A stretch of 44,096 nt of DNA from assembly GCA_944384725.1 (NCBI GenBank), contig CALWUJ010000014.1, positions 1 to 44,096 of the forward strand, given 5' to 3'. The stretch is from an uncultured Agathobaculum sp. GTDB taxonomy: Bacteria > Bacillota > Clostridia > Oscillospirales > Butyricicoccaceae. Under the pieces are notes generated by a model. That model saw only the letters and a list, made by a program, of their open reading frames with translations, was not told the DNA's origin and ran no database searches. How positions within the stretch are numbered: the first letter of the stretch is position 1; every line of letters begins with the position of its first letter. Made by a program: the position numbers and the translations under genes. Positions 27,940 through 28,590 of the stretch are shown one piece after another.

Positions 27940-27968
27940 TTGACATAACTGGTAAAATATGGTATATT
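27940..27968 (+). promoter_or_regulatory. Strong sigma-A promoter of the probable small RNA
   Basis: Perfect TTGACA (27940-27945), 17-base spacer ending TGG, and TATATT (27963-27968). It points to the right, away from the amidohydrolase gene, into a region with no credible coding sequence before the terminator. Confidence 0.85.
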
Positions 27969-27974
27969 AATCAT

Positions 27975-28130
27975 GGCAGTTGAAAAACTGCCATGCACCG
28001 TTCATATCTTTATCCCCACAATCCTACTTTTGGCGCTCTTCCGCAAGGAAGGGCGCATTTTTTGCGTGTTTCCGCAAAAGCTGTCGGATGCTGCGGGATA
28101 AAAACAAAACCGAGGTCACCCTCGGTTTTT
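27975..28130 (+). ncRNA. Probable structured small RNA, about 155 nt
   Basis: Transcription from the promoter at 27940-27968 would give about 155 nt ending at a terminator. Three further hairpins are visible: CATGGCAGTT/AACTGCCATG capped by GAAA (27972-27995), GCGCTCTTCC/GGAAGGGCGC capped by GCAA (28033-28056) and TTTTGCG/CGCAAAA (28060-28079). Both first loops are GNRA tetraloops, a sign of selected RNA structure. Unpaired stretches between them (about 27996-28032, C/U-rich) could bind targets. No ribosome binding site-led ORF fits inside. It does not resemble 6S RNA (ends do not pair) or SRP RNA (no core motif). Identity unknown. Confidence 0.65.
28106..28130. terminator. Bidirectional terminator between the small RNA and yabR
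   Basis: CCGAGG and CCTCGG with loop TCAC, flanked by A4 and T5 on each strand; on the minus strand TTTTGTTTTT follows. It ends the small RNA and the yabR transcript. Confidence 0.92.
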
Positions 28131-28134
28131 CTGT

Positions 28135-28590
28135 TTATCTGCGGCGGCGCGAACCGTTTTTACGGTCGGTCGCATGACGGACATCCGCCTGACGGCTTTC
28201 GCTGTCCGACATAAACGCCTTCAATTTATCCTCGAAGCTCATCGTCGCAGGGTCCTTCGGCTGCTGTGCCGCACGCCCGCGCGGTGCAGCGGGACGCTGC
28301 TGAAAACGCGGTTGACGGGCCGCAAAACCGCCTGACCGCTCCGGCCGCTGCTCCTGTGGCTGCGCTTTCTTGATCGACAGGTTGATGCGTCCGGCCTGAT
28401 CGATATTGATAATCTTGACCTTGACCGTCTGCCCTTCCTGCAGAAAATCCTTGATGTCGTTGACAAAGCTGGACGCAACCTCAGAGATATGCACCATGCC
28501 CGACTTGCCCTCCGGCAACGCAACGAACGCGCCGAATTTGGTAATGCCCGTTACCTTACCTTCTACAATCGTTCCCACTGCCAAATCCAT
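28135..28590 (-). CDS. yabR: S1 RNA-binding domain protein (YabR-like)
   Basis: A 151-residue protein with one S1 domain (about 1-75: GTIVEGKVTGITKFGAFVALPEGKSGMVHISEV) and a Gln/Arg/Pro-rich, probably disordered and RNA-binding tail ending RKNGSRRRR. Related YabR/CvfD proteins of Firmicutes affect translation or mRNA stability. The start at 28590 is set by the S1 domain start; GGAGG lies a long 13 bases upstream. Last gene of the divIC-linked block, the same order as in Bacillus. Confidence 0.9.
   Translation of the reverse strand: MDLAVGTIVEGKVTGITKFGAFVALPEGKSGMVHISEVASSFVNDIKDFLQEGQTVKVKIINIDQAGRINLSIKKAQPQEQRPERSGGFAARQPRFQQRPAAPRGRAAQQPKDPATMSFEDKLKAFMSDSESRQADVRHATDRKNGSRRRR

Follow-up and report, generated by a model that had tools for sequence, protein, structure and literature searches.

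A very likely small RNA family with a near-invariant C/U-rich linker in Agathobaculum and related Oscillospirales

An intergenic feature on the plus strand of the window, by which we mean the whole 44,096-nucleotide stretch of Agathobaculum DNA that was analyzed, is almost certainly a functional RNA. Judged from its sequence and from that of its relatives, it very likely represents a widespread family of small RNAs (sRNAs) of a known kind, one that is absent from Rfam 15. By analogy with characterized sRNAs we think it probable that the molecule pairs with mRNA in trans, perhaps with the help of Hfq; this reading is drawn from its architecture and from that analogy rather than from a target. 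Transcription, base-pairing in trans and the use of Hfq are each things that we infer.

Agathobaculum is a member of the Butyricicoccaceae within the Clostridia, and the assembly from which the window derives comprises 1.94 Mb and is 78% complete. The genes surrounding the feature lie on the minus strand and, read from right to left, specify DivIC, a YabR-like S1 protein, an amidohydrolase, fumarase, and an S30AE ribosome-associated protein. The candidate sRNA runs on the opposite strand with the amidohydrolase gene on one side and, on the other, the convergent S1-domain gene (28135..28590, minus strand; Pfam S1, PF00575, E=1.2e-20), which we take to be yabR.

The proposed pairing segment is an unpaired, C/U-rich linker at 27995..28025 (plus strand) with the core UUCAUAUCUUUAUCCCCACAAUCC at 28001-28024. 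A BLAST search with a 201-base query found matches in all 25 of the 25 genus genomes (E <= 6.3e-22) and in 11 of 12 other genera of the family (E <= 2e-7), the exception being G031, which is 76% complete (E 0.085). At these loci the 30-base linker is identical at 30/30 positions in 24 of the 25 genus genomes and at 29/30 in the remaining one; across the 12 other genera it is identical in five, carries one or two differences in six, and is missing in G031. The C/U-rich linker reported by the first-pass annotation is not only present but near-invariant, and this statement rests on loci found by BLAST, not on those picked by the core pattern. An exact search with that pattern yielded 98 stretches in the named GTDB collection, for which, as for the 33-sequence alignment and the 23-sequence set chosen in the same manner, identity of the core is partly built in; locus L022, whose linker has a single change, falls outside the 98. 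The linker consensus across copies is UUCAUAUCUUUAUCCC(C)ACAAyCC. At 24-30 nt, the conserved stretch exceeds the length of most sRNA seeds, which counts against the pairing reading.

Upstream of the linker is a promoter (27940..27968, plus strand) consisting of a -35 hexamer (TTGACA, 27940-27945), an extended -10 TG (27960-27961), and a -10 hexamer (TATATT, 27963-27968). With a spacer of 17 it matches the consensus at 11 of 12 positions, which bears out the consensus extended -10 promoter previously proposed for this strand; shuffles of 1301 bases contained 0.8 promoter-like sites. Among 23 other family sequences the -35 is 99.3%, the -10 95.7%, and the spacer 65.5% identical. An upstream site with at least 9 of 12 matches was found for 85 of 96 copies; the corresponding counts were 16 of 96 when the upstream stretches were letter-shuffled and 24 of 225 for other parts of the same loci (two of the 98 copies lie too close to a contig end and were left out). 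Requiring the extended -10 TG as well left 77/96 copies, 1/96 shuffled stretches, and 2/225 other stretches. Such a strong sigma-70-type promoter would drive a stand-alone sRNA, the transcription start of which we infer to be at approximately 27974. The spacer (27946-27959 in the window) carries a recurrent TGGNA in 38 of the 76 copies with a regular promoter, counted without a control; it is perhaps the site of a regulator.

The linker is flanked by two predicted hairpins. The 5′ hairpin, CATGGCAGTT-GAAA-AACTGCCATG, has 10 bp, occupies 27972..27995 (plus strand), and covaries among relatives. Downstream, a U-rich single strand (28026..28031, plus strand; 93% identical over 23 sequences) directly precedes an intrinsic terminator with its U tail, GCGCTCTTCC-GCAA-GGAAGGGCGC, at 28033..28063 on the same strand, in which the stem-loop spans 28033-28056 and is followed by the U run. 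Folding of 27974-28064 gave -32 kcal/mol (z -4.7 relative to 200 shuffled sequences). Since the terminator is complete in itself, it marks the predicted 3′ end, and the sRNA most likely ends near 28063 with a length of about 90 nt, not the approximately 155 bases originally assigned to it. Across copies, the predicted transcripts of the 81 of 98 that pass the promoter and U run rule have a median length of 91 nt (82-162), the 17 that fail either part of the rule being left out of this and the accessibility count.

All three of the hairpins recognized in the first-pass annotation exist; the third, however, probably forms no part of the RNA. It lies at 28106..28129, is predicted on both strands, and is best described as the two-way terminator of the convergent yabR. 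In some relatives within the genus the alignment covers positions 2-134 of the query (to 28063) and then, separately, approximately 169-201, with unaligned sequence between; because the hairpin aligns apart from the sRNA in these relatives, we assign it to yabR and surmise that it would serve the sRNA as a back-up terminator at most. A three-hairpin RNA of 155 nt was considered and dropped, the downstream GGGATAA being kept in just 6 of 22 genus loci. When 161 nt were folded (z -7.3), the linker paired over a long range with the downstream GGGATAAA. This segment, found within 28064-28105 of the window, might base-pair with the linker if transcription read through the terminator.

Covariation was assessed on 33 sequences (32 distinct), namely the window and core-pattern copies, and compensatory changes of the kind that the first-pass annotation had proposed to look for were found. 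Within the 5′ helix 95.5% of cells are paired and five of the ten pairs show changes on both sides across the 32 distinct sequences; the corresponding values for the terminator helix, where the alignment is less certain, are 82.5% and six of ten. Changes on both sides occupy 73 cells compared with 23.3 in shuffles, none of 500 of which reached 73, and 9-26 in slid controls. Two further measures are weak: the 11 pairs with a both-sided change compare with 8.8 in shuffles and were reached by 27 of 500, and the number of pair types was equaled by 16 of 500; the shuffles leave the relatedness of the sequences in place. The GAAA and GCAA tetraloops are present in the window as first described, but they are no hallmark of the family: GNRA loops occur in 12/32 copies of the first hairpin and 8/32 of the terminator, and the terminator loop is 34% identical among 23 other family sequences. 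GNRA loops are incidental and not the conserved property.

Across the 81 predicted transcripts the linker has a mean unpaired probability of 0.87, versus 0.44 for the remainder of the molecule, and the value for the linker is at least 0.6 in 80 of the 81 and at least 0.8 in 61. Since the promoter and the linker are both conserved while the promoter spacer and the terminator loop vary, the sequences point to selection on a promoter together with a single-stranded RNA segment. The 5′ hairpin would cap the 5′ end and keep the linker open, and the terminator with its U tail would form the 3′ end.

Conservation of the linker might also be ascribed to a small protein, MHRSYLYPHNP..., specified by the plus-strand frame MHRSYLYPHNPTF..., for which an ATG situated 5′ of the linker in 44 of 98 copies could be cited. 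That ATG is absent from this place in the other 54 and sits within a hairpin arm, 19 of the 98 copies have one C fewer, and the identity seen across the genus extends to third codon positions. The probability of this coding explanation is close to nil, which agrees with the earlier description of the gap as lacking a coding gene.

Of 295 genomes of the order, 40 contain the exact core pattern, its backward control giving zero among the matches listed. Wider core-pattern matches include Butyricicoccus and Intestinibacillus as well as metagenome-assembled genomes labeled Oscillospiraceae or Clostridia, and the linker is present in Agathobaculum butyriciproducens DSM 100391 and Butyricicoccus pullicaecorum DSM 23266. 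With a covariance model, 245 order genomes yielded 56 that matched at E <= 0.1; 42 of these were accepted by motif (exact or by reading) and fall in families f1, f3, f7, f13 and f15 (family labels f1 to f26 are our own numbering). The 14 weak matches that were dropped comprise nine read by eye (G043, G072, G088, G106, G108, G141, G168, G185, G200) and five dropped unread (G079, G159, G177, G199, G254). In a sample of 245 genomes from the class, searched with strict filters by which weak copies may be missed, only the window's own genome and one member of its family scored well, the next match having an E of 0.009. The suggestion that the RNA is lineage specific thus holds at the level of the order, where it spans at least five families, and nothing convincing appeared beyond it in the class sample. 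A phage or mobile origin was discarded, as the phages and viral contigs searched contained no match.

The RNA is encoded once per genome: a pattern for the linker complement finds it a single time in each of 25 genus genomes, except that one of these has two matches, at contig ends. Two subtypes can be distinguished among the 98 distinct copies, CCCC (79) and CCC (19). A second UUAUCC motif (CACAGCUUAUCCAAUGGC, CAGCUUAUCC-type) occurs upstream of the linker, close to the 5′ end, in 17 of 19 CCC copies (e.g., L049, L056, L095) versus none of 79 CCCC copies; of the other two CCC copies, one carries UUAACC and the other is truncated at the end of its contig. This association would be expected if UUAUCC were a pairing seed, and shared descent could explain it too. 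Two f13 genomes possess a diverged linker in the same place beside yabR; in L254 it reads GTTCATTCCATTCTCCCGCACAATCCCC, and L275 has a related stretch. At approximately 1501-1578 of L254, UUCAUUCCAUUCUCCCGCACAAUCC, the elements UUCAU, UCCC and ACAAUCC are retained, the intervening sequence having changed. A linker-like CUCACAUCUUUCUCCCCAUAAUG followed by a terminator-like hairpin was seen at approximately 1501-1588 of L252 (G200, family f26); to judge from the sequence it may be a true diverged copy, and it was not counted as a member.

The surroundings of the gene were compared across the same 98 copies. A convergent yabR lies within 1.7 kb in 78 and within 300 bases in 75, and the amidohydrolase gene is upstream in 62. 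Several copies adjoin other genes and yet retain linker and terminator, among them loci with no yabR in the stretch examined (e.g., L033, L036, L045, L103, L105, L113, L121, L129). By eye, two groups of such copies, L033, L036, L045, L103 and L105, and L067, L101, L112, L126 and L131, adjoin either a gene for an S30AE hibernation factor-like protein or an apparent gyrase/topoisomerase IV B subunit gene. At three other loci (L274, L277 and L283, from families f14 and f9) a different short candidate RNA was noticed by eye beside yabR, in which a promoter-like sequence is followed by GCAACTCCCTTCA and a terminator-like hairpin (three matches); it could represent a positional analogue having a C-rich segment of its own.

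The position between convergent genes, next to the yabR terminator, invites the suggestion that the feature is a mere arrangement of promoter and terminator, or the leader or attenuator of a neighboring gene, with no function as an RNA. We consider this very unlikely: the next gene to the right, yabR, is transcribed in the opposite direction, the neighbors vary between copies, and neither a long conserved unpaired segment nor a covarying 5′ hairpin is needed for termination.

When the whole window was compared with the 4227 families of Rfam 15, none matched at the gathering level, and 20 diverse related loci were likewise without such a match except for one tRNA in L105. The known-family match that would have counted against novelty was therefore sought in Rfam 15 and not found at the cut-off, and the original impression that the RNA resembles no named family stands. 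Below threshold, NmsRb (RF02877) scored 29.5 bits (E 0.0024; gathering score 52) in an alignment that covers the two hairpins and skips the linker, and mmgR/suhB (RF00519) scored 15.9 bits (E 0.24; gathering score 41) with gaps through the linker. These scores might be taken to indicate a diverged member of one family or the other, which we regard as highly improbable: both fall short of their gathering scores, the linker is left out of or broken up in the alignments, none of the 20 related loci reached either gathering score, and outside the order the class sample begins at E 0.009 even with the model made here. The Rfam model of mmgR/suhB, an alphaproteobacterial sRNA, likewise has a C/U-rich stretch followed by a terminator. 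With compensatory changes, a promoter that stands out from its controls, a near-invariant linker, and no Rfam family, the first-pass proposal of a regulatory RNA is well supported.

The preferred reading, an sRNA acting in trans, draws on the presence of an own promoter, an intrinsic terminator and a stand-alone gene, all of which are observed as sequence features, and of a conserved pairing segment, whose accessibility is predicted. The sRNA looks as if it works like the C-rich sRNAs that cover ribosome binding sites, namely NmsR, RoxS and SpoY. NmsR_A and NmsR_B of Neisseria are described as having a hairpin, a UC-rich single strand, and a terminator with U tail (PMC5362039). The present RNA shares this order of elements with NmsRb as architecture alone, the linker being unaligned, and is similar in length to the 91 positions of the NmsRb model. 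The NmsR sRNAs are described as having three predicted stem-loops and two sibling copies, whereas two hairpins and one copy are found here; their UC-rich strands have been proposed to pair with Shine-Dalgarno regions (PMC5362039). From Gram-positive bacteria, RoxS/RsaE and FsrA are likewise reported to bind G-rich ribosome binding sites through C-rich regions that are single-stranded (PMC10433868), although RoxS has three such regions in that account and the RNA described here one long linker; neither the RoxS/RsaE nor the FsrA family was among the Rfam matches listed. SpoY and SpoX of Clostridioides difficile, known from Hfq RIL-seq, belong to the same class, Clostridia, and are likened here by description; SpoY is reported to prefer a G-rich, RBS-like motif in mRNA 5′ UTRs, and added Hfq improved pairing (PMC10267692). 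Titles and opening parts of abstracts on small RNA in Butyricicoccus, Ruminococcaceae, Oscillospirales and Agathobaculum revealed no regulatory RNA of this group. The main text of a 2021 catalogue of candidate structured RNAs from human microbiomes (PMC8040213) does not name these genera; the sRNA may stand as an unnamed entry in its supplements.

By analogy, the unpaired linker would be the working part of the molecule. By pairing in trans with G/A-rich stretches of mRNA, the likeliest of which lie close to ribosome binding sites, it would alter the translation or stability of the mRNA, perhaps with Hfq. Targets were searched for in several ways. The 20-base complement, allowing up to three mismatches in 40 genomes, found only the sRNA itself and a few scattered sites with three mismatches. 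With 170 translation starts, drawn from the window plus 240 kb of genome, the linker gave -9.6 kcal/mol versus -7.3 for coding stretches; since an equally large preference for starts was shown by 91 of 100 composition shuffles, run on 150 of the 170 starts, it can be put down to composition. The complement of the linker reads as a ribosome binding site and then AUG, GGGGAUAAAGAUAUGAA, and patterns close to it had 147 matches in 25 genus genomes (26 being the sRNA itself) versus 50 for a backward control. A second version of the pattern had 113 (again 26 the sRNA itself) versus 24 in the same genomes, its backward control containing TAG, which coding sequence avoids in frame. The idea of a generic anti-start design was dropped because shuffled linkers do as well and because of this TAG. 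The gene dxs was picked post hoc, matches at its start site having recurred in the complement searches. Its start region, present in 29 of 30 loci, gave approximately -20 to -24 kcal/mol with the linker in the nearest relatives and -11.0 in the genus members L321 and L329; dxs was rejected as a target, the complementarity being confined to one part of the genus. Recurrent GGAGGATAAAGAGATGA sites were rejected also, since they lie, by eye, inside a GntR-like reading frame and not at its start.

That these searches yielded no target, together with the length and near-invariance of the linker, could be taken to mean that it serves to bind a protein (Hfq, the S1-domain neighbor, or a cold-shock protein), which the RNA would sequester or guide; the convergent neighbor is, after all, an S1 RNA-binding protein in most copies. 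Nevertheless, both linker and terminator persist in copies that do not lie beside yabR, the linker tolerates deletion of a C and other changes in other families, and the second UUAUCC of the CCC variant fits pairing as well. On balance a protein site seems quite unlikely. A more speculative elaboration, which we offer tentatively and rate as unlikely, is that of an order-wide, Hfq-linked core sRNA in which the 24-nt linker has been nearly frozen by one fixed, conserved partner, RNA or protein, rather than by changing mRNAs; CCCC on the one hand, and CCC with a 5′ UUAUCC on the other, would then be two solutions of the same contact.

The trans-pairing reading raises the question of Hfq (PF17209), which was detected in 120 of 245 order genomes. 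It is present in 39 of the 42 order genomes with the sRNA versus 81 of the 203 without (Fisher p = 5e-11, genomes being treated as independent). At the level of families the sRNA is found in 5 of 13 with Hfq and in none of the 13 others (p = 0.02). The three sRNA-bearing genomes without an Hfq hit are G000 (78% complete), G062 (90%, in 290 contigs) and G266 (100% complete); G200 is also without a hit, and counting it would give 39/43. Within the genus 19 of 25 genomes have an Hfq hit, the six others, including the window's own (78%), being 78-90% complete. This co-occurrence is confounded by shared ancestry, and, as most families with Hfq have no detected sRNA, Hfq would be a condition of the sRNA and not its cause. 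The U-rich strand at 28026-28031 and the 3′ U tail are a possible Hfq module: 70 of 98 copies have a TTT no more than 19 nt from the core, the first U run is of at least 6 in 86 of 95 copies counted, and strand and run fit the two-signature description of Hfq binding quoted in PMC5362039. The role of Hfq in Gram-positive bacteria has been called poorly defined (PMC13350326), the Gram-positive sRNAs characterized so far are described as not generally requiring it (PMC10433868), and titles and opening parts of abstracts concerning Hfq in Ruminococcaceae held nothing on point. With its single copy and its occurrence in five or more families, for the most part in genomes possessing an hfq gene, this RNA offers a way to ask whether Hfq functions in these anaerobes and, if so, how.
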